Shown here: piece after piece, positions 1,011 to 56,894 of the stretch
Layout of the letters: each line of letters begins with the position of its first letter
How positions within the stretch are numbered: position 1 is the stretch's first letter
IMG/VR virus record: IMGVR_UViG_3300049218_000295
Location: 62,001 to 126,000 of that record
Strand: one strand, 5' to 3'
Length of the DNA stretch: 64,000 nt
From: a virus
Notes under the pieces: model-generated
Databases searched by the model: none
Seen by the model: only the letters and a program-made list of their open reading frames with translations
Told to the model about the DNA's origin: nothing
Program-made: the position numbers and the translations under genes

Positions 1011-1665
1011 TTGGACCCTTCTTGACCAGAAGGAATCGTTGTACTATTATTGGCTTGGCTGGATGGTCACAGATGGTTGTATCATGCATCGATTCCGAGA
1101 AGGCAGAAATCGAGGCATAATAGTTGCGCTGACCATGCACCGGAACGACGAACACATTTTAGACTTCTTCAGAGATCAGATTCGACCGGACGCTAAATAC
1201 GCAATTAATGGCAATTGCAGCATGCTCAGTCTGGCATTGCCTAGGCGCTACGCGAATGAATTAGCAAAATTTGGGTTAGTACAGCGTAAGACAATAAATC
1301 TGAAAGTCACCAACACTCTCAAATCTATGCCAAAAGAAGCATTCCTTCAGTATTTAGTGGGGATTATTGAAGGCGATGGCTGTGTTGATATAAGGATGCT
1401 GAAGAGCAAGGGCTATGAATATAGTGTGCCGCGCATAAGGGTGACAAACAACAGCAAGCCTTTTCTTGAATGGATTGCTAGGAAATGTGAGTATTATTGC
1501 GGTGTGAAACGAAGAAAGCCTTATAAAAGACAGGGTTGCGAGTGCTGGGAATTGGGCATCGCCGGTAAAGACGCAATAGAGCTGCATAAGCAGCTCAGTT
1601 CTTGCCAATACCGTTTGCTGGAGAGAAAATGGAAGTTAATAGAACCTTTAGACCAACATCAATAG
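1000..1665 (+). CDS. Free-standing LAGLIDADG homing endonuclease
   Basis: A protein of 221 residues with two LAGLIDADG-type motifs: YYWLGWMVTDGCI at about residues 16-28 and QYLVGIIEGDGCVD at about 117-130. The acidic residues D25 and D126 sit where the metal-binding catalytic residues of monomeric LAGLIDADG enzymes lie. The spacing of about 100 residues is typical of single-chain enzymes, which cut long asymmetric DNA sites and spread by homing. No intron or intein surrounds it: it overlaps the upstream transferase gene by 11 bases and the downstream clamp-loader gene by 37 bases, so it appears to be an independent mobile gene sitting in the operon. Both catalytic acids are kept, so it may be active. 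Its target site cannot be seen here. Confidence 0.85.
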   Translation: MTNNWTLLDQKESLYYYWLGWMVTDGCIMHRFREGRNRGIIVALTMHRNDEHILDFFRDQIRPDAKYAINGNCSMLSLALPRRYANELAKFGLVQRKTINLKVTNTLKSMPKEAFLQYLVGIIEGDGCVDIRMLKSKGYEYSVPRIRVTNNSKPFLEWIARKCEYYCGVKRRKPYKRQGCECWELGIAGKDAIELHKQLSSCQYRLLERKWKLIEPLDQHQ

Positions 1666-2546
1666 GACATTTATTTGGGCAGGAGCATGTTTTAAACATG
1701 CTGGTCTCATGGGTCGAGCGCCCAGAAACTATTCCATCAACCATCATGTTCTCTGGCCCCTATGGGACAGGAAAGACATCAATTGCCAGAATTCTATCCG
1801 GTATTCTGACAAACGGATCAACTTGTGATATCGACGAAATCAATGCTGCTGCGTCTCGTGGCATCGATGATGTGCGCGAAATTGCGGACTCGGTCCGCAT
1901 TCGGCCTTTTGGCCCGGCTAAAGTATACATTCTGGACGAGTTTCACCAATTGACAGATGCTGCTCAGAAGGCTCTCCTTAAAGTGGTCGAAGAGCCACCT
2001 CAAGGCGTGTATTTCTTCTTTTGCACAACTGAACCTTCCAAGATTGTTCCAATGCTGAGATCGCGTTGCTTTCCGGTAGAGATGAAACTCCTTACCAGAG
2101 AGTCTACTCAAGAACTATTGTCGTTCTTAACTAAGGGCAGAATTACTGAGGAATTTGCTGAGGCCATTTATTTCCGATCTGGCGGGCACGCCCGTGATGC
2201 TGTGAAGCTTGCGGAGGCATCCTTATCCGCTGGGATCTCCACAGTAGAACAGTTGGAGCAGGCCGTTCAAGGCACCGATTATCAAACGGCTCGGCATCTT
2301 CTGGCCCAGCTTATTGGAGGAGTCAGGCCCGCAACCGCTGACCTACTTAAAGTGGCCCAAATGTCGGATGACCGAGCGTTGGCCGAATTACTTGATAGTA
2401 CAATTGACCAAGCAGCATTCGCGGGCCATGAAAAAGCACTGCGATATTACCCCGAATTCCTAACAATGCGGGCTTACCGCAAAGAGTACAAAATTACCCC
2501 TCGCGAACAGGCCATCCACCTAATTTCCAGGTTTATTCACGAGTAA
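1629..2546 (+). CDS. DnaX-like (gamma/tau) clamp-loader ATPase
   Basis: A protein of about 305 residues of the AAA+ clamp-loader family, which opens and loads the sliding clamp at primer ends. Visible motifs are Walker A GPYGTGKT (43-50), Walker B VYILDE (99-104), a sensor-1 strand with FFFCTTEP, and the SRC motif in LRSRCF. The order and the phrase ALLKVVEEPP are characteristic of DnaX. The four-Cys zinc module that bacterial DnaX carries between Walker A and B is missing; only one Cys is present there, so this is a shortened phage form. The ATG at 1629 follows GGAGAGAAA closely and begins at the usual MEVNRTFRP-like opening; an in-frame ATG at 1602 would give nine extra residues. It overlaps the homing endonuclease by 37 bases. 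Confidence 0.85.
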   Translation: MEVNRTFRPTSIGHLFGQEHVLNMLVSWVERPETIPSTIMFSGPYGTGKTSIARILSGILTNGSTCDIDEINAAASRGIDDVREIADSVRIRPFGPAKVYILDEFHQLTDAAQKALLKVVEEPPQGVYFFFCTTEPSKIVPMLRSRCFPVEMKLLTRESTQELLSFLTKGRITEEFAEAIYFRSGGHARDAVKLAEASLSAGISTVEQLEQAVQGTDYQTARHLLAQLIGGVRPATADLLKVAQMSDDRALAELLDSTIDQAAFAGHEKALRYYPEFLTMRAYRKEYKITPREQAIHLISRFIHE

Positions 2547-3822: not shown

Positions 3823-5499
3823 ATGAAACTGTCTACGAAATTTGATTACTCGTCTGTCGCTTACAACGTCGATAACACAGTGCATTTGCTTGTCCAGGCA
3901 ACGGCACCCAAACTCGATCTTGAAAAGAATCGCGTTCCGCTTAACCTTGTTGCCACACTCGACGTTTCACCATCTATGTATGGTGCGAAAATTGAGTATG
4001 CTCGCAAGTCTCTAATGAAACTCATCGACCATTTGTCACCTAACGACACCCTAGGTCTTGTGTCCTTTGACTCCGACGTCCGTACTTTGGCCCCTGTGAC
4101 CAAAATGGACCAGAAAGCCAAAGACAACTTGAAACAAATTGTCCAGAAAACTGGCATCGGTGGTGGCGGAACGAACCTATCAGGAGCAATGCTTGAAAGC
4201 ATTCGGCATGCAAACCAAATTGATGGGGCTTCTCGGGTGATTTTGTTCACTGATGGGCAACCAAATGTTGGTGTTCGGGAACCGGATAAACTGTCGGACC
4301 TTTTGCGCCAAAACATGCGCAAGAACCTGAGCCTCACCAGTTTCGGTTATGGAAATGACCATGATGCCAATTTGTTAACCGCTCTCGCGGAAATTGGCAA
4401 AGGAAACTATGCTTATCTACAAAATCCTGATGATGCTCTTACCGCATTTGCACGGGAACTTGGAGGATTGCTTTCCTGCTACGGACAAAATCTCAAATTT
4501 GCGATTACGCCAAAAGAGAAGACTGAAATCCTCGAAGTCATGAGCGACGTCGACGTGGAAGAGATTCCAGAAGGCGGAGTTCTGGTTTCGGTCGCGGACC
4601 TTTATAGTGAAGAAACCCGAAACATCGTCCTCAAAGTGAAACTTGATCGCCAGCCCAAATCCCACCCACGTGCGACTTCGGTTGCTGAGGTCGTTCTCAA
4701 GTATGATCGCATGCCTGAGGGCAAGCGCCAAACCGAGGATGTGCGGGCCAAAATACAGTTTGTAAAGGTGCAGGACGTACAGAAAAACGCGGACCAAGAG
4801 GTAGTGGACCAAGTTGGTCTTTGCCAACTTATGAAAGCACAGGAAGAAGCAACGGTTTATGCGGCTTCCGGAAATCTTTCTATGGCCAATTCCGTTCTAA
4901 ACAGCACTACTTTGGGTGTTCAAGGCGTCTTTGGAGCTGCGGGACCACAAGGTGCTTCTGGGCTAGTTGGAGCAGCTATGGCTACCACGCAAGGCTATTA
5001 TGCGGACCAGGCCTCCTTTACTAACTCAGTGCACCTGCGAGCAGCAAGTGCACATTCACATTCAACAGGTCGCGGTAGTCACACTTCCAATATGGGGCTC
5101 TACACGACAAATACCGCAATGGCAAGTATGGTGGATGCTTTCAAAGCAGATGATGACCAGCTCAACGACGCGCTGAACAGTCATAACCATTCGCTTGGGT
5201 CGGCAGGAGCGCCAGGTATCAGCAGTCACACCCACAACCCTGGTTTAGCCTCCGGTACAATTACGGGCGGGCAGGGCATGTCGGGTATTGGGGCTATCCA
5301 ACTTGACCAGAGCCGAATTGGCGGTGGTTTCAATAACTCTATTGGAAGCACCACAGGCACGCTGGTTTTGAACAATGGGATTGGTGGCGGTGGTATCGTT
5401 CATTGTGCAGATAGCACTGTGACAGTGCAGCCTGCTGAAACCAAGGTCACCGAAAGCAAAGCCAGCAAGACCAAATCCCGTTCTAAAAAGGAGTGGTAA
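3823..5499 (+). CDS. von Willebrand factor A domain protein with His/Gly-rich C-terminal tail
   Basis: A 558-residue protein. Residues about 38-215 form a vWA domain with a complete metal-ion-dependent adhesion site: D47-x-S49-x-S51 in TLDVSPS, T117 in GGGGTNLS and D144 in FTDGQPN. Such domains bind ligands or partners through Mg2+. A beta-rich region follows to about residue 340. The last ~190 residues are low-complexity, rich in Gly, Ser and His, with HSHS, SHNHS and SSHTHN patterns and a short collagen-like GPQGASG run, and end in a basic tail. The His patterns recall those of the tail-collar proteins later in the window. A good ribosome site AGGAG precedes the ATG after a 214-base leader, suggesting its own promoter, although I found no clear -35/-10 pair. 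No MoxR-type partner is adjacent. Confidence 0.8.
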   Translation: MKLSTKFDYSSVAYNVDNTVHLLVQATAPKLDLEKNRVPLNLVATLDVSPSMYGAKIEYARKSLMKLIDHLSPNDTLGLVSFDSDVRTLAPVTKMDQKAKDNLKQIVQKTGIGGGGTNLSGAMLESIRHANQIDGASRVILFTDGQPNVGVREPDKLSDLLRQNMRKNLSLTSFGYGNDHDANLLTALAEIGKGNYAYLQNPDDALTAFARELGGLLSCYGQNLKFAITPKEKTEILEVMSDVDVEEIPEGGVLVSVADLYSEETRNIVLKVKLDRQPKSHPRATSVAEVVLKYDRMPEGKRQTEDVRAKIQFVKVQDVQKNADQEVVDQVGLCQLMKAQEEATVYAASGNLSMANSVLNSTTLGVQGVFGAAGPQGASGLVGAAMATTQGYYADQASFTNSVHLRAASAHSHSTGRGSHTSNMGLYTTNTAMASMVDAFKADDDQLNDALNSHNHSLGSAGAPGISSHTHNPGLASGTITGGQGMSGIGAIQLDQSRIGGGFNNSIGSTTGTLVLNNGIGGGGIVHCADSTVTVQPAETKVTESKASKTKSRSKKEW

Positions 5500-10823: not shown

Positions 10824-10840
10824 TCTCCAAGGAGGCTTCC

Positions 10841-12826
10841 TTGGCGTCCCACTCTCGTGCTCTGATTTTTGATACCAAGGGCAATGTCTTACTCGGCCTC
10901 GAAGCCCACTCACAAGAGTATGGTCTGGTTGGCGGCCATTGCAAAGAAAATGAACACCCTGTCGACGCTTTGCTGCGTGAAATCCACGAAGAGACTAAAC
11001 TCGGACCCAATTTCCGCCATCTCGAATATCTAAGAGACTACCTCGATAATTCAATTTTTCTGGTTATTGTCGACCCACCCCCCGCCATTCCGGACCCATC
11101 GCAGGACCCAGACTGTGAATTTTTGTCTTTCATCTGGGCTGACCCTGCCCATCCTCCCGATAATATTTCGGAGTTCGCTTCCGATGTTCTTTTCCATTAC
11201 TTATGTGGACTAGTGGGCAAAGTTACTGCTTCAGTGCAATGGAGTGATTACGTCAAAGGTGAATGGTGGCTGACCAAAAACGGCTCAGAATTCGCTGATA
11301 TTGACGCAGGAGACGCTGGGCATGAACAAATTGCGCTCCAAAACCTTCTAGGTGAACATTTCGACGAGTTTAAAGAAGCTCTCGACCCTAATGATAAAGA
11401 CAAGAACCTTCAAGAAACTGACGATTTAGTGGCATATTACTGGAACGAAGGGAAAATACCGGACGACGTAGGCTCTAAGATCATGGGTCCGGAGTTATGG
11501 AAAGACCTTAAAAGTGACGTCCGTCTAGCTTACGCCAAACATCGCGGCGCAATTCTAGCTATTGATTTTAATTTTGCGGCCTATAAGGTCACAGCAAATA
11601 CTATCTCAACCATTCAAGACCATATCTATGAACAGGTCTCGGGCTCCGAAATTTCGGAGCTTGAGGGTGATGTTACCGTCGTCGTAGAAGAGTATTCCAC
11701 AGGTAAGTCGTCCAGCCTACCGGTCAATGATTTCTTAAACATCAAGAACCCCGGCCAGCTTTGGCGAGCTGTAGCTGGTGTAATCGAAGTCCTAGTAGAC
11801 GGTGAAAAAATTGGTGAGTTCGCGGACGACCAGGTTTGGGAAACTATTCCTAGACTGGCCCAGGAGCGAGCTAGGGGCAAAAAGGTCTCCTTCAGACAAG
11901 TTCTTGATTCGGGCGAAATTGTTGATATGAACTTGGGTGTCGGATTGCCGGGTCTCTCTGAATCTGCTATCAACGACCTAGAATCTGCGATTGATGAATT
12001 TCGAGACCACCAGGCCGACTATGTAGGATATCTAAAAATGACTGACAGCGTAGCCCAGGACCTACGAAATGATTTGGAAAGAGCAGATCGCATCCCAATC
12101 TACCGCTGTGTATCCTTTGATGATAAAGATTTGTTTCTTAAAGGTCTGCAGTCTCATGGGACGGGAATTTTTTGGTCCTTCAACCCGGACAAAGCGGTTT
12201 GCTATTGGGGCGACAAAGACAACCCCTTTTACGCTATCCTAACGGGCATAGCGGGTGATTCTGTCGATTGGCTCGGAACTGTTGAGCAACACATGCGACC
12301 TTCCACAGCCGGGGAAGATGAAATTCGCCTCTTGCCGCACAAATCTGTCCAAGTAAAAGAAGTCGAAATCTTCGAGCGTTCTACTAGAGAATCTACAGTG
12401 GTCCCTATCAATAAACGCCTGAACACTGGAAGTCGTGAACAAGATAGAAGCGAGCCACCCGCCCAGCTTTCTGCGTCGCTAAGCCTTGAAGGTGTAATCC
12501 TAAAGATCGTGAACTATTACTTCGAGAACTACTTCGGCGTTGATTGCCCGCAAATTCTAGTAACGACAATAACGACCTCTGAGCCTTGGCTAGCAAAGAC
12601 CGAAAACTCGGATAAAGGTATCGAGTTGATTGTTAATAGGGCTATCGCACAAGTCCCGAAGGTCCTGAAGCAGGCAGTAGCACATGAATCAATACACATA
12701 TTTCTGTATTCTCAGGGCAAGTTCGAAGACCCACACGGCTCTGAATTTAGTAAGTGGGCCGAGATTATCAACTCCGACGAAGGACCCAATTACATCTCCA
12801 AAACCGCAAACGAGACGTCCTTCTAA
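10841..12826 (+). CDS. Three-domain protein: Nudix hydrolase, ADP-ribosyltransferase-like domain, SprT-like zinc protease
   Basis: A 661-residue protein with a TTG start five bases after AAGGAGG. Residues 1-125 are a Nudix hydrolase: the box reads G32-x5-E38-x7-REIHEE(46-51), with Lys53 in place of the usual Gly. Residues 400-515 resemble an R-S-E type ADP-ribosyltransferase: IYRC (R422), GIFWSF (S446) and GEDEIRLLPHKSVQV, where E492 and E494 form the ExE pair. Residues 545-650 carry a zinc protease motif HESIH (615-619) followed by PHGSEF (H632), the SprT arrangement. The middle (130-400) is unrecognised. Nudix enzymes of this kind can act on ADP-ribose or NAD-type compounds, so it joins makers and breakers of ADP-ribose links with a protease. 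It lies among virion genes and could be an injected effector; that is inference. Confidence 0.75.
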   Translation: MASHSRALIFDTKGNVLLGLEAHSQEYGLVGGHCKENEHPVDALLREIHEETKLGPNFRHLEYLRDYLDNSIFLVIVDPPPAIPDPSQDPDCEFLSFIWADPAHPPDNISEFASDVLFHYLCGLVGKVTASVQWSDYVKGEWWLTKNGSEFADIDAGDAGHEQIALQNLLGEHFDEFKEALDPNDKDKNLQETDDLVAYYWNEGKIPDDVGSKIMGPELWKDLKSDVRLAYAKHRGAILAIDFNFAAYKVTANTISTIQDHIYEQVSGSEISELEGDVTVVVEEYSTGKSSSLPVNDFLNIKNPGQLWRAVAGVIEVLVDGEKIGEFADDQVWETIPRLAQERARGKKVSFRQVLDSGEIVDMNLGVGLPGLSESAINDLESAIDEFRDHQADYVGYLKMTDSVAQDLRNDLERADRIPIYRCVSFDDKDLFLKGLQSHGTGIFWSFNPDKAVCYWGDKDNPFYAILTGIAGDSVDWLGTVEQHMRPSTAGEDEIRLLPHKSVQVKEVEIFERSTRESTVVPINKRLNTGSREQDRSEPPAQLSASLSLEGVILKIVNYYFENYFGVDCPQILVTTITTSEPWLAKTENSDKGIELIVNRAIAQVPKVLKQAVAHESIHIFLYSQGKFEDPHGSEFSKWAEIINSDEGPNYISKTANETSF

Positions 12827-13226: not shown

Positions 13227-14519
13227 ATGTTTGTAGGTTATCGAGGTCGAAATATTCTATGGGCAAGTCCTACTAGATATTCTACGGACGCTCAGCATGA
13301 AGTCTTAGAGACCCCTCCTGACTTTCCTGTCTCTGACCCCGCAGTTATTGTACGTGAATACACCATCCACCGAGGACAACTTTTCAAAATTTCTGACCTT
13401 TACAACTGTGTTCCTGCTGATTGTAAAGTCGCCATGATTTCCCAATATGGCATCAATTGTGGGATAGCTACTTACACTAAGTATCTTTGTGACCAAATGC
13501 GGCCTATGGTTCGTGAGCTAAGAATTTTTGCTGAAGACGCAGACCCTGCCGACTGCCAAAATGATAGCAATGAAAATGTGGTTCGTTGCTGGAAGCGTTC
13601 CGGAGACTACAATCGGATTTTGGCGGAAATTGAAAAATTTGAACCCGATGTGGTCTTTGTGCAGCATGAGTATGGCAGCTTCAGCCACGGGGCGAACTGG
13701 AATACCTTAATCGGGCACCTCAATGCCAAATGGCGCACTGTGGTTGTGTTACACTCTGTCTATGACCACCCCGACAAGTTGATTTTTGAGGCTCCTTGTT
13801 CCGAAATTGTCGTCCATTCAAGCTCCGGTAGAGACCTTCTTAGACAACGTGGGGTTACCCACGCAACTATCAACCATATACCACATGGCTGCATGGAGCC
13901 AATCCTAACCAACGTCAAATTCTCTCGAATTGAGTCTAAACACGTCATCTTTCAGTACGGTTTCGGTTTTGAATACAAGGGCTGGGAAAATGCTTTAGCA
14001 ATTGTTGATAAACTCAAAGACAAATATGAAGACCTAGTTTACATCGGTGTCTTCAATGTATCCAAGTTTTCTGAATCTTTTAACAATATGTATTACGACA
14101 AGCTCATGGAACTGGCTCGGGAGAAGAAACTCGAGAAGCACTTTGTGCTACACAAAGGCTTCCGTTCTGAGCCCATACTACTTAGCTATATGGCGCAATC
14201 CCATATCAATCTTTTCCCTTATTGGAACCACCACGAGTGGAGAGTACATGGAGCCTCGGGCGCGGTGCGCCTAGCTCTAGCTAGCGGGACTCCTACAATT
14301 GTGGGCGATGTCCCATTCTTCTCCGAGTTTAAAGGCCACATCCCCGTTTGTTCTTCTATTGATGAATACGTGAGTACCATTGCTTCCATCTTTGAGGACC
14401 CAGCGGCGAAAGCGGACGTTCTTCAAAAGACACACAAGTTTATTTCGGACCGCACCTGGAACAAAATCGCCCAAGGCTATTTACAGGTGCGACCGGGAAG
14501 AGAATTAACGGCTATATGA
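13227..14519 (+). CDS. GT4-type glycosyltransferase
   Basis: A 430-residue protein with a GT-B fold of the GT4 family, which moves a sugar from a nucleotide donor to an acceptor. The N-terminal half has the acceptor-side pattern AMISQYGINCGIATYTKYL (Gly-rich loop) and FVQHEYGSF. The C-terminal half has HVIFQYGFGFEYKGWENALAIV (the conserved K in the donor domain) and the E-x7-E-like region GAVRLALASGTPTIV. The first ~65 residues are an extra N-terminal extension. The stop overlaps the next gene by four bases. With the pyruvyltransferase-like and nucleotidyltransferase genes that follow, it may build or change a glycan on the host surface or on the virion; the substrate is not known. Confidence 0.8.
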   Translation: MFVGYRGRNILWASPTRYSTDAQHEVLETPPDFPVSDPAVIVREYTIHRGQLFKISDLYNCVPADCKVAMISQYGINCGIATYTKYLCDQMRPMVRELRIFAEDADPADCQNDSNENVVRCWKRSGDYNRILAEIEKFEPDVVFVQHEYGSFSHGANWNTLIGHLNAKWRTVVVLHSVYDHPDKLIFEAPCSEIVVHSSSGRDLLRQRGVTHATINHIPHGCMEPILTNVKFSRIESKHVIFQYGFGFEYKGWENALAIVDKLKDKYEDLVYIGVFNVSKFSESFNNMYYDKLMELAREKKLEKHFVLHKGFRSEPILLSYMAQSHINLFPYWNHHEWRVHGASGAVRLALASGTPTIVGDVPFFSEFKGHIPVCSSIDEYVSTIASIFEDPAAKADVLQKTHKFISDRTWNKIAQGYLQVRPGRELTAI

Positions 14520-15526
14520 AAGTCAACTTCCTGGGCTGGTATGGCCGCGACAATCTCGGGGATGAGGCCTTTAAACTCGCCCATAATGAGCTTTTCCCGT
14601 CAGTAGAGCGAGTCTATACGGTTGACCATTTGGACAAATCCGCAGACCTGGTGGTTCTTGGCGGTGGGGATGTTGTTAAAAGTTTCTATCTTAATAAGAT
14701 ACCAGAAAGGGTTCCTTATTATGCTTTCGGAGTCGGAATGGGCTACGACTCGGAAGTGGAACTCTTTAAAAAGAAACCGCCCGTTCATGCCTACATGCGT
14801 AGCCACCACGACACAAACTTGGCTTCGGACAATGGGATTAAAGCAAACTTCACACCAGACATCACTTTCATTTTGAACCCTCCTGGCAAAGGCTACCCGC
14901 TTCCTAATCGCTCTCAGGATGGTCGCAAAGCCATGGCGGTCATTTTAACCGACAGTATCAACCCAAGTTTTGGTAACAACAAAATCAAAGAGTTATCCTA
15001 TTCTGAATACTTCAAATGGGAAATGGCCCAATCCCTTTCAGAATTGTCCCAGTGGTACCAAATCTACTTCTTGCTCTACTCCTGGGATCAGTATTCCAAC
15101 GACCTCAGAATGGCGCTGGATGTGAAAGCTCGGATGAGTGGGGACTCCGCCCCCATTATCATCGAAAAGCAATTTGACACTCTGGAATCACTTGACGCCA
15201 TGGGAGAGTTTGATCTGGTGGTTTCTATGAAGTTTCACGGGGTCATATTCTCAACGATTGCCGCGACTCCTTTTGTCAACATTGGTCTCACCAAAAAGAC
15301 AGAACTCTTTTGTTTTGAAAACAACCTTTCGAACATTGCCATCCCTCCCCGGTCTTTCACCCATGAACGACTCATGGCTGCCATCAAAGAAGCTGAAGCT
15401 CCGGGGGTGTCGGAAAAGCTCCAAGCTATTACTCAGCGAAACCAGCTTGACCTCATAGCTATTCGAGACCAGATTGCTAAGGACTGGTTATCTTCAAAAG
15501 GTGACCAGACCAAAAGTTCTAAGTAG
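14516..15526 (+). CDS. Polysaccharide pyruvyltransferase-family protein
   Basis: A 336-residue protein of the CsaB/WcaK family, which adds pyruvyl ketals to sugars of surface polysaccharides. The opening FLGWYGRDNLGDEA is the family's hallmark Gly-rich N-terminus, LVVLGGGDVV follows at about 46, and the C-terminal LVVSMKFHGVIFSTIAATPFV matches the conserved His-Gly segment near the active site. Length is close to the family norm. It begins inside the last codon of the GT4 gene and is probably translated together with it. A phage role could be modifying host capsule or O-antigen to block superinfection, or decorating the virion. Confidence 0.8.
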   Translation: MKVNFLGWYGRDNLGDEAFKLAHNELFPSVERVYTVDHLDKSADLVVLGGGDVVKSFYLNKIPERVPYYAFGVGMGYDSEVELFKKKPPVHAYMRSHHDTNLASDNGIKANFTPDITFILNPPGKGYPLPNRSQDGRKAMAVILTDSINPSFGNNKIKELSYSEYFKWEMAQSLSELSQWYQIYFLLYSWDQYSNDLRMALDVKARMSGDSAPIIIEKQFDTLESLDAMGEFDLVVSMKFHGVIFSTIAATPFVNIGLTKKTELFCFENNLSNIAIPPRSFTHERLMAAIKEAEAPGVSEKLQAITQRNQLDLIAIRDQIAKDWLSSKGDQTKSSK

Positions 15527-25271: not shown

Positions 25272-28200
25272 ATGACATTAAGAGCACTCCTTCAGTTCCG
25301 CAATCTCGACAGCACTTCCGACATCAATACGCGATATGTCAATCTTATTGGTCCCGGCGTCTACCATGGTGGACAAGTAACGCCCGTTCCGGCCCAGCTT
25401 GCGGTGAGTCTTGCTCCTTGGCAACTTGTTAACGTAGATGGTATGGTCGCTGAAGAAACCAGTGATACGGTAATCTTACAATGCCCTGCGGGACAAACGA
25501 CTGTTATTGCAGTGTATGCAGTGTACGTCGAAAATGGCGCACCCATTCTACAGACTGTCGCTTACGAGCGCGATGCCTTCTATTTACTCCCTGATCTTGA
25601 GCATTATGTCATTATGGCGATGGTCACCGTTCCTATTGGTGCCACTTCTATTTTGTCTTCCTACATCAGTTACGAATACCGCCAAAGCATCGACCCGCTC
25701 GGAAGGTCGCCTTTCCGTGGGTTCACGAACGCCACTCCGACCGACACTGTGGACAACCAAGTCGGCGATTTCTATATTGTAGTGACCGGCGGTGTTGCAA
25801 ATCTCTGGGCTTGGACTGGTACACAGTGGCAAGTCATGACAGACTTTGTTGCCCTATCGGCGGAACTGGCTAACCACATTGCCAACCTTGATGTCAACGT
25901 CAAGCATATTACTGATAACGAACTCGCAGCAGTTGTTGGTACTTCTGGGGTAGAGGCATCAGCAGTCATACAAGATATTACTTACTCTGCTGCTGCTGTC
26001 GGTGTCGCTGGGAATTTAATCAGTATAGCCTACACCAGTGGTGGTGTTGCCGGTAGTGAACTTGTTACCGTTACAGGCAATGCTATTTCGGTCAAAATTG
26101 CCGATGGCGTATCAACAGCACTTCAGATTAAAACGGCGATTGATAACAGTCCCGCTGCAGATTTGGTAACAGACCAAATCACTGGAATTGGAAGCAATCC
26201 CCAATACACTACGGCTGCAGTTCTACTAACTGATGGGGCAGGAGAACCAGTCAGCGCCGCCAACAAATTGGTGGACAATGCCGACCCTCGGATTCCTCTC
26301 CTCAACGAAGCACAGGCCCTTCCTGGTTCAAATGGCATCCCAGGCCCAGACAACCTTTATATCACTCAAGATTACCCATTAGCGATTCCGGAAGAACAGG
26401 CTTTCGTTCTTCCTCTTGCTCAGTTCCCACCGTTAGCAGTGAGTCCGCAAGCGGTCTATCTAACGGTTTCAGATGGACCGATTTACGTTGGTCTCTCTTC
26501 AATCGGTTCGGCCAACATTTACTTCAGATTCTACGACCCCTCCGACAATCGAGAATTTACAACTGCGTCAGAACTCACGGTCAACTGCACCGGCGTTTAC
26601 AAGGATGCTAACCTTACTATTGAACTTGACCCGAGTACGGACTCCAATGTTGATGAGTACGGTTTCTTTAACAACGCTGGCCTCTACATCAAGTTCAGTA
26701 CCCTACCTGATACCAACTTCAGACTGATTTATGGTCAGGGGTTCACTCTTGGCTCACTACCAAACGGTGCGCTACTTCGTCGCAATATTTATGACGCCCA
26801 AACCACTGGTGAGACAGTTATTGCTATTGAGCAGATTAAGGGCCGACCGTACACTACTGAGCCACCGACCGATGAGCAAAATATCAACCTTCGGTCCAGC
26901 CAAGTCCAATTGCAAGAATACATGGCCACGGTTTTCAACGCTGACCATGTGGTATCTAATTTTGCCAATGCAGCTAGCGTTCCCGATTTTGGAACTGATT
27001 TTGTCGAAAACGTAGGAATACCCACCGGTGCCACGTTTACCAACACCAATTTGGTCGGCTTCACCTATAATAGCACTACTGGGGTCGTCACTTACAACAG
27101 CTCGGTCGATCTTTCCGCCGTCACAGCAGGAAACATCTTTCTTGACGGCGCAGGAAACGCCTTTACAATTCAGTCAGCACCTTCTGGTTTCTCATTAACC
27201 ATTCGAACTCGCGATGGCTATATTCCGCAGTCCTCTACTCAGAACCCCCTAGGTGGAGTTAACACCTCGGTCACAACAGCCTTAAACGGCTCTTGCCAGC
27301 CGGATAACAACCCACGCAATATCAATCTGAGTACACTGCAATACGTTTCCGGACGCGAACGTATTAATATCCGCAACATCTCAGTAGCCCCGAATGAGTA
27401 TCACCCAATTACGAACAACGTGGCCTATCAAATAATCACGCCAGTACGTTCTGAAAACTTCGGTGAGCCACGTGTTCGACTGTACGGCGGACTCGAAGTC
27501 ATTAACACCGGTAGACTTCAAAGGGTCATCGCTGCCGGTTCTTCTCGGATGTTAGTGACGGGTTTTTTCACAGAGCTTTACTTGCTTTGCGACTTTACTT
27601 CGCCTCTACAGACCTCGCTCCCCTCAGTGACAGTCAAAGTGGATGGGTCGCTTACCGGTACAACTGTTGACCTCAGTCGCAGTGGCACCGAAATCAACTT
27701 TATTACAATGCAGAGTCTACCAGGAATTCGGGCGAAATCCGTTGCTATGGTCAACGGTCTCTCCGATGGAGTTCCTCATACAGTCGAGATTGTAGTGGCT
27801 GCAGGTAGCTCCATGGTTTGCTATGGTTTTGACCTTATTCGCTACGCGGTAACCTCAGGGCTTGTAATTCCTGGGCGTGCCTTTGTCCAAGCTGACTTGT
27901 ATAAAAACGACATTGTCCAAACGCTCCTTACCCCGGCGATTGGAGCCCAGCAGCGCGGTGGCGTTTCGGTTCGCTACGTCAATCGCGAGCAAGCCCTATC
28001 TTCAGAAACGTACCTTCTCACCGATTTTGATGGTACACTTCAAGGTCCGGCGGGAACTGCCGTTCCTTCAACACCGAACTTTACCGTCGGCAGCGGACTT
28101 TCTAAATTTTCCTACTACAAGGTCGGCGATGTTGTTAAGTTAGTGACTTCCTCTACCGAAGAAATCAAGCAGATTCTTTCAATTGGACCGGGTGCTGGTC

Positions 28201-30230
28201 AGGTGGTCTTCACTACCAATGTGACTTCATCGGGTTCGGCAGCTCTACTCCACATCGCAAGTACTCAGGGCGATTCAATTGACCCGACGCAAGAATACAA
28301 AAGGTATTCACCGACGGATTTCGGTCTCGGCATAACCAATGGCCCAATCACCGACTTCTCTACACCAACTTCGGCGACTCAAAACCGGATGTTCACGATG
28401 GAAGATGGCTGCACGACCATGGCGGGACAGCAGCTTAGTTTCACCAACGTAAACGTAGAAAGCACCAACTACGCGCTGTATCTTCCGAATTCTTCTTCGA
28501 CTTTGTTCATCCGGGCGCTGTGCAGTCGCATGGACATCCTGGTACCAAACTTATCGCCTTGTACCATGAATGTCTCAGTTGACGGCTGCCCTCCTTTCGC
28601 CGTTTCCATTGCAGGAGTTGGTCTACAACGAGTCACACTCTTAGTGAATGCTCGCTACCAGACCCATGAAATTACCATCACCAATAGTGCTGGCCTCACA
28701 GTTTCTGGTATCATTCTTCACGAACCTGCTATTTCCCCTGCGATTCAGGGCGCGGCTCTTGGAACCCAGAACTTGTTGGCCCGCTACGCCGCCGGTAATA
28801 ACCCCGATGGTACGATTATACCAATCGGAGCTGTGGCGCTTGACCCAACAACTACCGAGGGACGTTTCTACAGTGGGTCTGGTCTAGGTAATACCTGGAC
28901 GGACGTTCAAGACTTTGTAAATGCCCCCGCGACTGGGCGGTACATTTCCTCGAACCAGGCTGGTTCATATTTTGAATACGAATTCTTCGGCGACGGCTTT
29001 GAAATCGAATTTTCTTGCGGACCAGATCGCGGACAGGCCCTCATTGAACTGAATGGCTTAGTGGCAAATAGCACCAACTATTCCGCCACCTTCCGAAATG
29101 TAAACGCCACGACTGGTGTCGTGGACATGTACTCCTCTACTGTAAGCAGACAGCGGTTTGGCATCTCCTCACTAACCTATGGTAAGTTCACATTAAGAGT
29201 TAGCGTACAAAATCCAGCCCAGAAAAATTCTGCAAGCTCTGGCTACAACATCAACATTGCTACCATCTACTTGCTTAATACCAGTGGCTACAACAGCGTC
29301 ACTCCGTTGCAGGACTACTCCCAGGAGTTTGTTATCGGTCAAGAGACGGTTCGCGATTCTCGCCAATTCGAATCCGGCGCTACTGCTCCCATTACTCTTA
29401 CCCAAGTCCAGCAGGTTCTTGCCTATCCACGTGACGGTTCCTACTCGGTCGGCTTTGAGTCAGATGATGATTTCCCCGTTCTCCCCGATGGCTCAAACGG
29501 TGGTGCGCAGATCATAGCGGCCCTTGCTGCCGCAGCCGCAACCCCAGACAGTCTCGACCCTCGAACCATACGCAAAATTTGGATTAAGCCAGGAACCTAT
29601 CAAATCACGTCGTTAATCCAGGTACCTACAAGTATTGAAATTGAAGGGATAGGGTTCCCTGTATTGAACAACAATGGGGCGGGAAGCACATGCTTCCAGG
29701 CTACTGGCACGCAGATTAGAATCCGTTCTCTTGACTTCAGTGGCTTCACGATTGCGGTCGATGTAAACAACAACACTGGCATCTCCATGTTCTTCAACCG
29801 GAACATGACTCATGCTAACATGCTGTTGGCTGACACGATTGTAACTCCAACTGATGCGCAAGCAGTGGTTGGTACCACGGCTTCACTCCAAGCAGGATTT
29901 GCCACTCATACGGACTTGCAGGCTGCTCACGATGCCGTCCCTGCTGGAAGCAAAATCATTTTGCTCGCTGGTACCAACATCACCAACCCCGTCACCATCA
30001 GCAAGAACAATATCTTGATTGAAGGTATGGGCAATGCGGCAGTGGTGAACACCACAATCACAATCACATCCAATAACTGTATGGTGAAGTATTTGCGTTG
30101 TGCGGGAACCGCGCCGTCACTTGTTGTGAGTGGAAACTACAACATCCTGAAAGAGATTTGGATTCCGAGCACAGGTGGTATTTCGGATTCCGGAGTGGAC
30201 AACGTCTACGAGGTAATTCAGGAGTTATAA
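25272..30230 (+). CDS. Giant tail-fibre protein 1
   Basis: A 1,652-residue, mostly beta protein. Its first ~320 residues align with the giant protein at 34763 (LLQFRNLDSTSDINTRY against the equivalent AIFQWDNSDSTADLNQRF; FRGF, then FYIVVTGGVANLWAWTG), so the N-terminus probably attaches both to the same tail site. A ~100-residue domain is inserted at about 225-325. The final ~120 residues (LQAAHDAVPAGSKIILLAGTN, then ITISKNNILIEG-like rungs) look like a parallel beta-helix, as in fibre tips that bind or cut glycans. Three tail-collar genes follow directly. A GGTGAAGA site precedes the ATG. Confidence 0.75.
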   Translation: MTLRALLQFRNLDSTSDINTRYVNLIGPGVYHGGQVTPVPAQLAVSLAPWQLVNVDGMVAEETSDTVILQCPAGQTTVIAVYAVYVENGAPILQTVAYERDAFYLLPDLEHYVIMAMVTVPIGATSILSSYISYEYRQSIDPLGRSPFRGFTNATPTDTVDNQVGDFYIVVTGGVANLWAWTGTQWQVMTDFVALSAELANHIANLDVNVKHITDNELAAVVGTSGVEASAVIQDITYSAAAVGVAGNLISIAYTSGGVAGSELVTVTGNAISVKIADGVSTALQIKTAIDNSPAADLVTDQITGIGSNPQYTTAAVLLTDGAGEPVSAANKLVDNADPRIPLLNEAQALPGSNGIPGPDNLYITQDYPLAIPEEQAFVLPLAQFPPLAVSPQAVYLTVSDGPIYVGLSSIGSANIYFRFYDPSDNREFTTASELTVNCTGVYKDANLTIELDPSTDSNVDEYGFFNNAGLYIKFSTLPDTNFRLIYGQGFTLGSLPNGALLRRNIYDAQTTGETVIAIEQIKGRPYTTEPPTDEQNINLRSSQVQLQEYMATVFNADHVVSNFANAASVPDFGTDFVENVGIPTGATFTNTNLVGFTYNSTTGVVTYNSSVDLSAVTAGNIFLDGAGNAFTIQSAPSGFSLTIRTRDGYIPQSSTQNPLGGVNTSVTTALNGSCQPDNNPRNINLSTLQYVSGRERINIRNISVAPNEYHPITNNVAYQIITPVRSENFGEPRVRLYGGLEVINTGRLQRVIAAGSSRMLVTGFFTELYLLCDFTSPLQTSLPSVTVKVDGSLTGTTVDLSRSGTEINFITMQSLPGIRAKSVAMVNGLSDGVPHTVEIVVAAGSSMVCYGFDLIRYAVTSGLVIPGRAFVQADLYKNDIVQTLLTPAIGAQQRGGVSVRYVNREQALSSETYLLTDFDGTLQGPAGTAVPSTPNFTVGSGLSKFSYYKVGDVVKLVTSSTEEIKQILSIGPGAGQVVFTTNVTSSGSAALLHIASTQGDSIDPTQEYKRYSPTDFGLGITNGPITDFSTPTSATQNRMFTMEDGCTTMAGQQLSFTNVNVESTNYALYLPNSSSTLFIRALCSRMDILVPNLSPCTMNVSVDGCPPFAVSIAGVGLQRVTLLVNARYQTHEITITNSAGLTVSGIILHEPAISPAIQGAALGTQNLLARYAAGNNPDGTIIPIGAVALDPTTTEGRFYSGSGLGNTWTDVQDFVNAPATGRYISSNQAGSYFEYEFFGDGFEIEFSCGPDRGQALIELNGLVANSTNYSATFRNVNATTGVVDMYSSTVSRQRFGISSLTYGKFTLRVSVQNPAQKNSASSGYNINIATIYLLNTSGYNSVTPLQDYSQEFVIGQETVRDSRQFESGATAPITLTQVQQVLAYPRDGSYSVGFESDDDFPVLPDGSNGGAQIIAALAAAAATPDSLDPRTIRKIWIKPGTYQITSLIQVPTSIEIEGIGFPVLNNNGAGSTCFQATGTQIRIRSLDFSGFTIAVDVNNNTGISMFFNRNMTHANMLLADTIVTPTDAQAVVGTTASLQAGFATHTDLQAAHDAVPAGSKIILLAGTNITNPVTISKNNILIEGMGNAAVVNTTITITSNNCMVKYLRCAGTAPSLVVSGNYNILKEIWIPSTGGISDSGVDNVYEVIQEL
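25945..26250 (+). repeat. Domain inserted in giant fibre 1
   Basis: Codes for about 100 residues (VIQDITYSAAAVGVAGN onward to LLTDGAG) that are missing at the equivalent point of the paralogue at 34763. The pattern (ITYSAAAVG-AGN-ISIAYTSGG, then GNAISVKIADGVSTALQIKTAI) is one I know from repeated domains in large phage structural proteins. Confidence 0.5.
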
Positions 30231-34642: not shown

Positions 34643-34671
34643 AGTATAACATAATTGTGCAAACGCGTCAA
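34643..34671 (-). promoter_or_regulatory. Sigma70-type promoter for the leftward zinc-motif gene
   Basis: Read on the - strand: -35 TTGACG (34671-34666), a 17-base spacer and -10 TATACT (34648-34643), with an extended -10 TG one base upstream (TGTTATACT). It lies 22 bases upstream of the start codon of the leftward gene, close to consensus. Confidence 0.8.
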
Positions 34672-34762
34672 GTACTATTATAGAACGGGACCGGGTTTCC
34701 GTTCCTTGGTTCACAGGCTTATCTTCGAAGGTGATGCAACTATATTCATCACCGGTGACCAA

Positions 34763-37700
34763 ATGAGCTTAACCGCGATATTCCAGTGGGACAATTCAGA
34801 CTCGACGGCTGACCTAAACCAGCGGTTCTCCTCAATATATGCCAAAGGCATCATCAGCAATACTGGTGGACTGCTTTCGCCTGTTTCGGGACAACTGCAA
34901 GTAACACTTTCTCCTTACATCGCTGTTGGCTTCGACGGAATGATGGTGCAAGAAAGTGCCGCCCAGACCTTCAATCTCGTCATCAATCAAACTAACGTCA
35001 TTGCACTTCGAGCTGTACACAATATTGGTGCGGCCCCTACTTTAACCTATGGCGTCTTCGAGATTACTGCTTTCAACAATCTCGTCAATCGGGACCAGTA
35101 TATTGCTTTCGGAGCGGTAACCGTTAGCAGTCCAGCCACCCAAGCTACTACGAATGATATCAGTTATAGCGGTCGAGATCAAAATGATCAAATTCAGCGC
35201 AATCCCTTTCGCGGACGGGTTTCTTCCCAAACCATTACATGTACCGAAGTGGAAGGCAGCCCGGTCCTGGCCACCACCCAGCTTTCAGATTTGAGTGTTG
35301 GTTTAGCAGTCTCGGGCATTGGTATCGCTTCGGCTTCCTACATTACAGCTATTAATAGCCCGGTTTCCACTACTGCCTCCTTTACAACTAGCTCAACGGC
35401 GATTACGGTAAATAGTGTAACCGGAATTTACCCTGGAATGTTGGTTACCGACACGACCAACAGCAACTATATCCCAGCGGGAACTACTGTAACCTCAATC
35501 GTTTCTACTACAGTTTTCATTAGTCAGGCAACTATTGGTACCGCAGCGAATGATACTGTATCCTTCCAGGGAAGCTTTGTTATCAATAACAACGCCATTT
35601 CTCCTGGTGGCTCACAAAGTCTCACTTTTGTCAACCTTCCCGTTCTTACCCCGAACCAAAATTTGCCTGGCGATTTCTACATGGTCAACCAAGGGACCGG
35701 CGATTTGGCGTCCATTTGGGCCTGGAATGGCGAAGTTTGGATTAACATCACGGATTCCCAAAGTATTGAATCTGAACTTACACAACATGAAGAAAATTTC
35801 TTCCAAAACCAAATCCATTTAACTAGTACCCCTGGCGTCAGCGACCAGGCAAGTGCTGCTCTCGGTTCCTATGGTATCCCCGGTTTACTGAACCGATACG
35901 TAACTCAGACTGACCCACAGTTCCCCTCGACTGATGAGGCGGAGGCACTAGTTGGTTTTCCGACATCCCCCGCTCCAAGCGCATCCAACGCCTATATTAC
36001 ACAACAGTATCCAGTAGCCGCCACTACGCAGGTTCTTTTCGCGCTGCCGCCCGGCGGACCAATCCAAATTCAGGCTTCTGAAGGTCCAATCTATGTCGGA
36101 ACCGGACCGGTCAACTCGGCCAATGTTTTCTTTATGCTTATGGACTTTAGCCTCAAAAGGGGCTATGTCAATAATGAGGGCGTGGCCCCTCAAATTGTTG
36201 GGGTCTTCACAGATGGCCTTCTTACTCAGCCATTAGTACCATCGTCCAACGCTAACGTGGACGCCAACGGTTTCTTCACTGGTGACCTCTTCCTTCAAAC
36301 CAGCACGGTTGTGGATACTGGTTTCCGCTTGGTTTATGGCTGCCGTCAAATTCTTTCCTCGGTAGTTAAAGACTTTACAGTAAACACCACCCCCGGAGAC
36401 GACACCATTCCTTCCTTGGTGGTCCAACAGGTGGCCAACATTAAAGGCCGCTCCTTCGATACCTCGACTCCCACCGATGAACAAAATATCAATCTCCGTA
36501 TTGACCTCAACGGTGTTCATTCTTACCTCGGTTCGGTTCTTGATACCAACACCGTGGCTGACGCCGCCGACTTTAAACGTCTAGCCGACGAGCCAACCAT
36601 CGGAAGCTACTTTGACTATAACGTTGGCATCGAGCCAATCTACACCTATTTGAACTCGTCCTTGACGGGTTACACCTACGCATTGGTATCCGGAACGGGG
36701 ACGATCACCTACACCAGTGGTGTCATTCCAGTAGGGGTCCAGGCGGGCAACCTTTTTATTGATGGTGACAATAATCAATATGTCATCCAATCTGTAATCT
36801 CGACCACCCAATTGACTATTGTTTTGCCTAGTACTGGTCTTGCTCCAAGCGCAAGCACTGTTATTACTGCTCCATCAGGAGCTGGAACCGCCCAGAGTGG
36901 CGCGTGCCAAGTAAATAACAACCCACGAAACGTCTTGATTTCTGAAATGAAGATCGATGGCCTTTCTGAAGTCATCGCAGTTCCCTCAATCCAGGCGAAC
37001 AACGCAGAGTTTTCACAACCATTGGGCCAAGTGGCTTATGCACCGGTCCGTCCAGACCAGCGCCTCGAACCGCGCCTCGTTTTCTATGGTGACGCCTGGG
37101 AGAATTTTCAGGACCCAGTAACTGGTGAACAATACGTTAGGAATGCTGGCACAGGCAGCTTTATGATTACCAGCATCTTCACTGATGTTGCGGTAATTGT
37201 CCGTCGCCGTGCTGGGTCTCCACCGCTAAGTGTTTCTATCAACGGCACCACTCCTTTCAACGTCAGTATCTCGGGTGGCGGACTAATCGCGGACGCCGTG
37301 ACCACAGCTTTCGGACCAAAATACGAAGCAGTTCCTATTGCTAAGAACTTGCAAAGTAGAGCAGATTGGAGTGCCACAACACCATCCACTATCACTGCTA
37401 CTATCGCTGCCGCTTCTTCTGAATCCTTTGATATTTATGGCATCTTGTTGATGAAGACCAATGATACCACAGCGGGTACTGTGGTATTGGAGTCTGGGGT
37501 CGCTTTCGCCCAAGCACAAATCATCCAGAATGATGTTGTCAATTCCACCGTCCCCATTCCGCCTCTGACCCCCTATCAACGCGGTGGACGAGTAAGTTAT
37601 GCCGCCAACAACGGCAGCTTTAACACCGCGATCTCGCAGCTTGCGACTCTGGATGGTGCTCCCAATACGAGCGCATCACCTAATGGTACTCTCACAAATT

Positions 37701-40700
37701 CTGGTTCGACGTCGCAGTTGGTTCTGTCGAATTCCAACTATGCCAGTTTGCTTGTTGGCTATCAAGTCAACGATATTGTCCAACTGATAAACACCACTTC
37801 GTTACTTTCTGACATCCACCGTATCACTGCTATCAACAACAATACGGTGACCTTCGAGAGCACTTCAAACACCAATGGCTCTACCTGCAATATGAGGCAT
37901 ATTTGCAGTACGAATAGCCCGGTAGTCAACCCAATTGACGCAGAAGTTGCACGTTATAACCTTGTCACGGACTTTACCAACGGAACTCCAACAGACTTCT
38001 CCGGTCCTGCGACTGCAAATCGCTACGCTTTAGGAAAAGACAAATACACCTTGGTCGCAGGGACCAACCTCAGTGTTCAATTCGAACCCGTCGTTACTGG
38101 CAGCTCAGCCGCAGTCCGTATTGAATCCGGCGGAACCCTAAGAATTAAAGTTTTAGCTACAAGACTTGACATTTTGGTAAACAGCCCATCGGCTGTTTCT
38201 TTTAATGTCTCCATCGACGGTTCGCCTGCCTACACCTGGGGTCCGACGATTGGTGGTGGACAACTTGTTAATTTGTTCTACAATGCTCGTTATCAAGACC
38301 ATGAAGTGGTCATCACAAATGCCACCGGTCTTGCTATTAGTGAAATCATCATTTTTGCGCCAGCAGCAGCTTCGCTTCCGGTTGATACTGTTGCGGTAGC
38401 GGACCTTTACCAGCCCGCATTCTATTTGCCTTCGCTATCCTATTTGTCGTCCGCCCCAAATACCTATCTGGTCGGTGGTTGGTTCCACGAGGCGCTTCAC
38501 TACATAGCAACATTGCTGGGTACAGGTGTAAATCCTGACTGGACACTCACGCAGAGCTGGTCGGACGCCGGTGGCAAATCACCATACGGCCAATACATGA
38601 GTACTGCGAACAACGGTTCCGCCGCCGAATTTTGGGTTCTCGGCACTGGGTTCGAATTGCAGTACATCATGGGTCCGAATCACGGGTATTTCAATGTTTC
38701 GGTTGATGGAACTGACCTCGCTTCCGTTTCCGGAACCCTTGTCGGTTCTAATCCAACAGGTGGGGCCTATTCCGGTGGCGTAGTCGATGCTTACAGTGCA
38801 GGCTACACTCGTAGGAACATTGGCGTTTATGGCTTGGCTTTTGGTCTCCATCATGTGGTTGCCAAAATTCCATCGACTTTGGCCAAAAACTCGGCGTCGA
38901 CCGGTTATTACATGGCATTCACCGGCTACTATGCTATCAACATGTCGAGCGGAACCACTGCTACACTTTCTATCGGCATCGACCAATATGGCAACTACAA
39001 TGGAGTAGTTGATACTCGCACTTTTGCACCTCTGCCTGTTATTGCGGGTGTTACGCCCCAAACTTACGAGCTTCTTGGAAGTAATGTCACCGCTCTCACG
39101 TCAAACCCGAACTACGCAGGTCGTGGCGCTCCACTTCGCACGGTTGGAAACAGTCAGGGTTTTGCCGATGCAATTGCTAGCATGGACAACCAGATTAGTC
39201 TGTTCTTTGACCAGCTCCGAATGTTACCAAGTCCACAAGCAGGTGGCACAATTTATTCTAACCGAGTAGCAATGCTTGGCTCAGACGTAACGATGCTCGA
39301 TGGAACAACCCGCAGCCAGATCATCAAGACGTTCTTGATGAACTTTAGTGGGGCACAGTTCTCGTTTGGAACCAGCGATGCTGGGACAATTTACGACCAG
39401 ACTGGATTAACGAGCATTGGTTCTTTTGCTGCAGTTAATCCTGGACCCGGAAACTTCCTTTGGTACTCGATCACAGCGCAGTCCAACACCCTCGGCTCCG
39501 ATAATCGGATGTCGATTGAGTTTACTGTCACAGCGGCGACTTCAACAGGGACAACTCAGGCTACAGCACCACGAGCTACTTTTGTCAGCGGCTTCCCAAT
39601 TGGCGAAGTATGCGTAGCAGGGACTACAGGTTCAGCGACCGTCAACGTCCTGCCTATTACTGCGGGCCAAATTGTCCAGTTGGGGATTGGGGCCGGAGCA
39701 GGCTCCTCAGGTTCGGGGGGCGGAGCGCCTACACAACCTGCTGATGGATTCTCACTAGTAGTTTCGGACACTTTCCAAGAATCACCCTCTGCTGTTGGCT
39801 CTTTCGTTAACCCGACGTACACCACGGGCTCATACAATCCGGCAAGCAACATCTACTCCTTGCTTTGTGACAAGACACCAACGATCACAACGCTGGGCGT
39901 AGATTTCACATTGAGTCAAGCCCCATCGGGTTTCTCACTCGCAGTCGGTAACGTTATCTGGGTGAACTCACTTGGTACTTTCTCCAAAGTCGCTACAGTC
40001 ACTTCCACAACCACAGGGACTCTGGACGTTGCTTTCTCTGCTGATCAGACTGCTGCGGCTGGGATGGTTGCTCAGGCTCTTTGGACTCTGGATTTGGCCA
40101 ACGTTGGGGACCCTGCCCACCAAACACGCCCTTGCGACTTCTACCCGAATTTCAACAGTCCGCAAATCAACATTGACTACGAAGACAGTTTGGCTTCGGG
40201 AGATGCAGTAGCCGACCTTGTGGCTCAAGCCCGCGTGGTAGTTGCGGCTTCGAACTACGGCTTCTACAATGATACCTCTTCAATCGCTCTATCGAGCCAG
40301 TATGCCCCAATCTTCACGCGGCCATCAGCTCCAAACCAAATCAACAACTACGTGCTTGATACTATTACTGGTATCGTGAGTGCCACTACCTCGAACACAA
40401 TCACGCTTTCACCGATTAACACCAACTTCTTAGCTGCGGCGGGTGAGCTTACCTACAGTACTTCTCTCACAACCACTGGAACTTTTTCATCAGGTTCTTT
40501 AACTATAACGGTAGCAAGTGCGGCGGGAATTGTAGTAGGAATGTACATCTCGGACACGAGCAATACGAGCTACATTCAGCCCAACACGATTGTAACATCA
40601 ATCGTTGGAACTACAATCGGAATAAACCAGCCAACAATGGGCGCAGCTTCTGGTGACGGACTTTCTATTCAAGGCAATACTCCTTTCACCTATACGAGCT

Positions 40701-56627: not shown

Positions 56628-56894
56628 ATGAGTAAGCCAACAATAAGTTACCCACTCTATCTCTTCAAGAAGTCGGGCTCCGTGGTCGAACTGGTCGCGG
56701 ATTGGGCACCGAGGTTCGCAGGTAAGCCCGGTGCGGTTGTCAAGCGTTATGACACCGGCAAAGAAATGTTCGTCCTAAAGGAGGCGCTCGTGCCTCTCGT
56801 CCAGCTTTCGGCCTGCCATGGCGAGCTGGTCTGGGTCACCGACGACGCCGACCAAACCGAAATCACCGTTCCAAGTAGGAAGGTGTCCAAATGA
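56628..56894 (+). CDS. Small hypothetical protein with a likely leaderless start
   Basis: An 88-residue protein. The ATG at 56628 lies seven bases after the -10 hexamer, so there is no room for a ribosome site, and translation would begin at the 5' end of the message. A longer frame from 56391 overlaps the preceding gene in another frame and is rejected. The sequence is beta-rich (SYPLYLFKKSGSVVELVADW, GKEMFVLKEALVPLVQL), like a small SH3-type barrel. The stop overlaps the vWA gene as ATGA, so the two are coupled. Function unknown. Confidence 0.6.
   Translation: MSKPTISYPLYLFKKSGSVVELVADWAPRFAGKPGAVVKRYDTGKEMFVLKEALVPLVQLSACHGELVWVTDDADQTEITVPSRKVSK

Follow-up and report, generated by a model that had tools for sequence, protein, structure and literature searches.

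A phage protein with Nudix, ADP-ribosyltransferase-like and SprT-like parts, and a candidate family of R-S-E ADP-ribosyltransferases

The window analysed here is a stretch of 64,000 nucleotides, bases 62001-126000 of a 168,948-base virus record. It contains an ORF whose product is laid out, from the N- to the C-terminus, as a Nudix domain, a middle region, an ADP-ribosyltransferase (ART)-like domain, a linker and a SprT-like domain (Table 1). In each of the six segments examined, codon bias supported the frame of this ORF over the two other frames and over the reverse strand. A frameshift join is therefore improbable, and we read the ORF as a single protein, not as neighbouring genes fused by mistake. 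The exact coordinates of the ORF and the residues R422, S446, E492, E494, H615, E616 and H619, all named in the initial annotation or implied by its motifs, agree with our translation. The start-site scan also returned a weak internal ATG start at Met400 with AGGA upstream; one may speculate that initiation there would yield a short form consisting of the ART and SprT parts.

Table 1. Features of the 661-aa ORF, its surroundings and its relatives (window positions unless a locus handle is given).
Feature	Position	Strand	Evidence or remark
Clamp-loader-like AAA gene	1602-2546		8 kb upstream of the ORF
VWA gene	3823-5499
Shine-Dalgarno-like AAGGAGG	10829..10835	+	sequence and start-site scan; five bases before the TTG start
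ORF, 661 aa	10841..12826	+	uninterrupted, no stops; TTG start
Nudix domain, residues 1-125	10841..11215	+	PF00293
Nudix box G-x5-E-x7-REUxEE, G32 to E51	10934-10993	+	sequence
Middle region, residues 126-400	11216..12040	+	no family found
ART-like domain, residues 401-520	12041..12400	+	paralogue, family alignment, two-sequence profile
R422	12104-12106	+	family alignment
W445-S446	12173-12178	+	family alignment
T480		+	family alignment
E492	12314-12316	+	family alignment
E494	12320-12322	+	family alignment
Polar linker, residues 513-548	12377..12484	+	sequence; between ART-like and SprT-like parts
SprT-like metallopeptidase domain, residues 549-661	12485..12823	+	PF10263
HESIH, residues 615-619	12683-12697	+	sequence
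Third His, H632, then G633	12734-12736 (H632)	+	sequence
Glycosyltransferase-like and polysaccharide pyruvyl transferase genes, preceded by a 106-aa ORF	13227-15526		downstream of the ORF
Baseplate_J gene	19622	+	~7 kb downstream
Tail-fibre and collar matches	22652, 30231, 41623	+	from ~10 kb downstream; strand given for the tail-fibre genes
Standalone ART-like paralogue, 155 aa	G000:57976-58443 = L005:976-1443	-	phmmer; ~3.6-4.0 kb before window start
Terminase	G000:12489-14468	-	58-63 kb from the ORF
Portal	G000:9726-12122	-	58-63 kb from the ORF
Vibrio megaplasmid pair: Macro-domain-like gene, then ART-like homologue	L063:720-1827, L064:750-1857, L071:909-1863

The two ends of the protein were assigned by family profiles. 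Pfam NUDIX (PF00293) covers residues 7-105 with an E-value of 1.7e-9 and 38.2 bits against a curated cut-off of 21.1, and no other NUDIX match appeared anywhere in the 168,948-base record, even with E-values up to 1 allowed. The consensus of the Nudix box is GX5EX7REUXEEXGU; in our protein its catalytic acids are kept, and Lys53 replaces the late glycine that follows 'EEx'. Other libraries gave weak matches to this part: the best PDB Nudix entry stood at 0.022, and a PHROG family named portal protein at 1.4e-4, with no portal or MuF domain reported for the protein in the profile scans. At the C-terminus, SprT-like (PF10263) covers residues 598-646 (5.8e-7, 29.8 bits against a curated cut-off of 25.6; 33.6 bits when the domain alone was the query), and the HExxH...HG stretch aligns weakly with Spartan (E 0.23). 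The protein carries a Nudix and a SprT-like domain, each with its catalytic residues intact, as the initial annotation had proposed from the Nudix box (32-51) and the HExxH...H-G motif (615-633). The middle region yielded no significant Pfam or NCBIfam family, its sole Pfam row being at 0.11 and its best PHROG match at 0.035. The phage record as a whole holds one SprT-like match above the cut-off and two below it, the latter near 163 kb. A 102-aa protein with HExxH at L088:1384-1692 (minus strand) matched SprT-like and Peptidase_M78 below the cut-off.

The gene is located between replication genes and a baseplate/tail block, and no head gene adjoins it. The initial annotation had described it as lying among virion genes, which is half true: baseplate-J-like and tail-fibre genes begin some 7 and 10 kb farther downstream, but the genes next to it are unassigned or glycosyltransferase/pyruvyltransferase-like, and terminase and portal are far off. 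The two genes directly upstream gave no family in the profile scans. All Pfam rows of the glycosyltransferase-like gene downstream are below the cut-off, as is a base-V-like match in the tail block; a search of the phage record for the gp25 and phage sheath families gave no match. L004:8180-12533 holds two further genes of glycosyltransferase type. The terminase shares 28-34% identity with its counterparts in phage NCTB and in Dickeya, Erwinia and Pseudomonas phages of about 200-270 kb. The position of the gene at the edge of the tail block fits late expression without showing packaging.

The ART-like part requires more caution. The initial annotation had recognised it by R422, S446 and E492/E494; these residues are present, but shuffling shows such a pattern to be common. 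Its generic form, R...[ST]...ExE[VILFY], turned up in 7240 of 20000 shuffled versions of the protein (36%), and thus R...S...ExE alone is not evidence for an ART. A stricter pattern including G-x(1,2)-W-[ST], drawn up after the family described below had been seen, was found in 9 of 20000 shuffles and in two of the 1106 ORFs of the phage genome, namely our protein and a paralogue. Residues 397-525 had no significant match in Pfam, PHROG, NCBIfam or the PDB (the best stray rows, at 0.071 in Pfam and 0.1 in the PDB, bear unrelated names), profiles of that family found nothing in the PDB, and two AlphaFold predictions, from a single sequence and from three, reached a mean pLDDT of 38.7 and 37.0, too low for a fold. 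The case for an ART therefore rests on sequence homology, and it is this homology that makes the assignment probable.

One relative is encoded in the same phage. When residues 397-525 were compared by phmmer with the 1106 phage ORFs (stop-to-stop, at least 60 aa, from overlapping stretches, so that some are counted twice), the first match after the query itself was the standalone paralogue (E 6.1e-5; next 0.34), in which R, WS and ExE align with those of the target. A plasmid search with the ART-like part returned four matches. Three are from Vibrio and cover 83-84% of the query at E-values of 8-10, which by themselves are at chance level; the fourth, from Rhodococcus, covers 46% and was left out of the family. 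Searches from the Vibrio protein, however weakly it had been found, led to phage proteins in KpGz_1 (2e-4) and KpHz_2 (4e-4), and a search from KpGz_1 led to Eowyn, phi92 gp246 and CB7. A contig scan based on the ART alignment added two members (L072 and L073) out of 42 stretches; two earlier scans of this kind in viral and genome contigs confirmed nothing. L081, the second member from Vibrio, came up in a search whose profile already contained the target. In the alignment of ten members the columns of R422, G442, W445, T480, E492 and E494 are invariant, with S or T throughout the S446 column; ExE is the pattern of transferases. An ORF that matched homologues of KpGz_1, which we call acylphosphatase-like from the look of its sequence, covers another region and was taken as a chance match.

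Several profile tests bear on the membership of our protein in this family. A profile of nine members, without the target, ranked the target first among the 1106 phage ORFs (E 4.7e-5; next 0.042) and gave it 19.0 bits, while 200 shuffles and the target read in reverse reached 3.8 bits at best. This result leans on the Vibrio proteins, since they had originally been picked by the target and since a profile of the seven phage members, without the two Vibrio rows, placed the target second (E 0.13). As single queries, three of the nine members (two Vibrio, one contig) had the target as their best match. In the opposite direction, a two-sequence profile of the target and its paralogue was run against 1348 ORFs from the other loci retrieved: rows 1 to 13 (best E 2.9e-4) all belong to this one family and represent eight different proteins, some retrieved twice, row 14 is T4 ModB, and L072 comes afterwards at 1.5. 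Neither phi92 nor CB7 is among the 22 matches listed for this profile (to E 2.9).

The appearance of ModB was followed further, the ModB and ModA rows being identified by their coordinates. With the family removed, the two-sequence profile ranked ModB first of 2117 ORFs (E 0.85), and among the 368 non-family ORFs of at least 150 aa it ranked ModB first (E 0.15) and ModA fourth; against their own shuffles ModB won 1000 times out of 1000 and ModA 994 times. A 12-sequence profile placed ModB second of the 2117 (E 0.13) and first of the 368 (E 0.022, above 997 of 1000 shuffles), with ModA at rank 106. A comparison of an 11-sequence profile with ModA/ModB by hhalign was not significant (probability 0.6%). 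ModB is therefore the best match of the two-sequence profile outside the family, a weak one that derives mainly from the part from before R to S. Taking the homologues, the conserved residues and the ModB ranking together, we judge residues 401-520 to be very probably an ART of the R-S-E type.

The relatives of this domain have a setting of their own. In the Vibrio megaplasmids the homologue is preceded by a gene annotated as a Macro domain in one record and as a hypothetical protein or phosphatase in two others; Pfam Macro scored 8.9e-4 and 0.043 on the two that were scanned, both under the cut-off. The annotation of L071 makes the second gene shorter, and the match to it is broken into two parts. 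A Macro-like gene beside an ART-like one is what would be expected of an ADP-ribosylation pair, and the two Vibrio genes may form a toxin-antitoxin pair of this kind. A search for a Macro domain in the phage record itself gave no match. PHROG 35613, a family of unknown function, was matched by the three phage members tried (phi92, KpGz_1 and L073) and not by the ART part of our protein, its paralogue or L081. These proteins, which include phi92 gp246, share the R, G, W, S/T, T and ExE of the target; they differ from its fused domain in being standalone, 171-223 aa long, with another N-terminal part, and the same holds for the Vibrio homologues. The PHROG 35613/phi92 gp246 family thus appears to be a previously unrecognised candidate family of R-S-E ARTs, judging from its sequences, and the open-licence literature searched had no mention of phi92 gp246. 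If so, a small set of phage and Vibrio-plasmid proteins to which no function had been given, with a Macro-domain partner in Vibrio, becomes a candidate ART family, and this may matter more widely.

No relative of the full protein came to light in our searches. The phage collection had none at E 1e-3. At E 10 it gave 49 records, and among the best 40 of these 49 matches 39 touch the Nudix end and none clearly shares two of the target's domains. One of the 40, a protein of Pseudomonas phage HRDY3, aligns over target residues 455-649 and was considered as a relative of the ART and SprT parts together; in the pairwise alignment the target's ExE is unmatched, so the SprT part alone was taken as related. 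Pattern scans with the whole protein and its three parts in viral contigs, and in genome contigs, found no full-protein relative, nor did a search, run without a positive control, of 48 of the 54 records holding the terminase loci L009-L062 (all but L018, L032, L036, L045, L049 and L054). When an ART profile was run over 48 records that included known carriers as positives, it matched eight, each of them a known carrier, and none of the 40 terminase relatives. A Nudix domain, an R-S-E ART and a SprT domain in one protein were likewise met nowhere in the open-licence literature, where the listed titles and abstract openings were covered and most subscription papers fell outside. The view of the initial annotation that no described protein joins the three is in agreement with these searches, among the matches listed.

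Comparison with known systems places the protein more closely. The T4 enzymes ModB, ModA and Alt resemble it in the R-S-E type of active-site pattern (our T4 comparison covered ModA and ModB and left out the C-terminal end of Alt). To our knowledge, these T4 proteins have no Nudix or SprT parts, and KptA, an ART-superfamily domain to which we return below, is not of the R-S-E clade. The nearest architectural precedent is given by the polyvalent proteins of phages and conjugative elements, in which, as in our ORF with at least two unrelated predicted activities (Nudix and SprT-like), several unrelated enzyme domains share one polypeptide of a mobile element; a zincin metallopeptidase is their commonest domain and an ART their commonest protein-modifying one, and the peptidases were proposed to free the other domains or to attack host proteins (PMC5512222). 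A multi-enzyme phage effector with an ART and a peptidase is thus a known kind of protein, in the part of that survey consulted. In the same part, however, the polyvalent ARTs are H-Y-D, the peptidases fall into 12 clades without a specific relationship to earlier ones, and Nudix is named once, fused or neighbouring to an InPase domain (PMC5512222); our protein has the R-S-E pattern and matches the SprT-like profile. Nudix domains joined to virion or ART-superfamily domains are on record as well: phage Nudix fused to MuF, portal or prohead peptidase, a KptA-Nudix fusion in Bodo saltans mimivirus, and, as separate cases, virion-linked ARTs (PMC9503650). The SprT-like metallopeptidases of jumbo phages have, like Spartan, the HExxH...H and the SprT-like profile of our protein, and the part of the source consulted mentions no protein in which SprT is fused to Nudix or to an ART (PMC7824862). 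What appears new is therefore the combination of Nudix, ART and SprT, the R-S-E and SprT types within it, and the link between PHROG 35613 and ARTs.

We propose that the protein is a polyvalent-type phage effector of host takeover, centred on NAD/ADP-ribose chemistry, with a new combination of domains, and we give this reading a probability of about one half. The R-S-E ART domain would transfer ADP-ribose from NAD+ to a host macromolecule, like T4 ModB and Alt. The Nudix domain would hydrolyse ADP-ribose or a related NDP-X and so remove either the product or a signal of host defence. The SprT-like metallopeptidase may cut the protein's own polar linker, a possible self-cleavage region, and so free the parts, or may cleave a host protein. 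The substrates, self-cleavage, timing, delivery and host target are all inferred. The union of ART and peptidase in this reading has its precedent in single phage proteins for which self-release was proposed (PMC5512222); Nudix domains fused to phage head proteins, and ARTs of virions, are further precedents (PMC9503650). In its fullest form, which we hold only tentatively, one polypeptide writes ADP-ribose marks, clears the products and releases or arms itself through a Spartan-like protease, in a phage that has a standalone copy of the ART and with an ART of an unrecognised R-S-E family that in Vibrio stands beside a Macro gene. If the domains are active, the phage would have brought together, at a fixed ratio, a writer of ADP-ribose, an enzyme that degrades it and a protease, and self-processed multi-enzyme phage effectors would be directly testable with one small protein.

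One might argue that the protein serves in counter-defence, where the Nudix and ART domains would act not on a host macromolecule but on small molecules derived from NAD, by destroying or using up an ADP-ribose signal or NAD+, and the SprT domain would remove a host defence protein. The ExE kept throughout the family is a transferase pattern, and the Macro gene beside the Vibrio member suggests the reversal of a macromolecular mark; both speak against this explanation, neither decisively. The Nudix domain of the target is intact, as counter-defence would have it, phage Macro, NADAR, SLOG and Nudix proteins have been argued mainly to counter ADP-ribose signals, and the R-S-E clade includes, besides modifiers of macromolecules, NADases or NAD+-phosphorylases, according to the part of the source consulted (PMC9503650). 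On balance we regard a role in counter-defence as unlikely.

Another alternative is a role in virion assembly, with the SprT-like protease acting in the maturation of proteins of the tail or baseplate and the other domains accessory or inactive. The Baseplate-J, base-V-like (below the cut-off) and tail-fibre genes 7-10 kb downstream lie on the same strand, and the HRDY3 protein that the SprT part weakly resembles has portal, Vgr, tail-fibre and amidase genes in the vicinity of its own gene. However, the tail genes do not adjoin our gene, a PHROG 'protease' match points to a separate protease-like gene elsewhere, and inactive accessories would have no need to keep every catalytic residue, as the Nudix and ART-like parts do. 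An assembly protease is quite improbable. That residues 401-520 are some other small domain with an accidental R...S...ExE arrangement, as the frequency of the generic motif in shuffles, the want of a significant family match and models without a usable fold would allow, is very improbable in view of the R, W-S/T, T and ExE kept across ten diverged proteins, the Macro-gene neighbour in Vibrio and the ModB ranking.

Some other genes of the phage deserve mention. The ART paralogue adjoins a collagen-like gene (Pfam Collagen 6.7e-5, below the cut-off), and about 2 kb from it lies a cytidylyltransferase-like gene (L005:3170-3790, plus strand, equal to G000:60170-60790; PF01467 1.7e-11) with a cysteine-rich start, whose product is perhaps an adenylyltransferase of NAD or CoA precursors. 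Two giant ORFs at 25272-30230 (1652 aa) and 34655-41614 (2319 aa) of the window, between the tail-fibre and collar genes, have no PHROG match at E 0.1. Further along, an ATPase gene at 54216-55316 and a gene at 56891-58291 that resembles both ViaA and a protein of a Moorella phage perhaps make up a RavA/ViaA-like pair in a phage.
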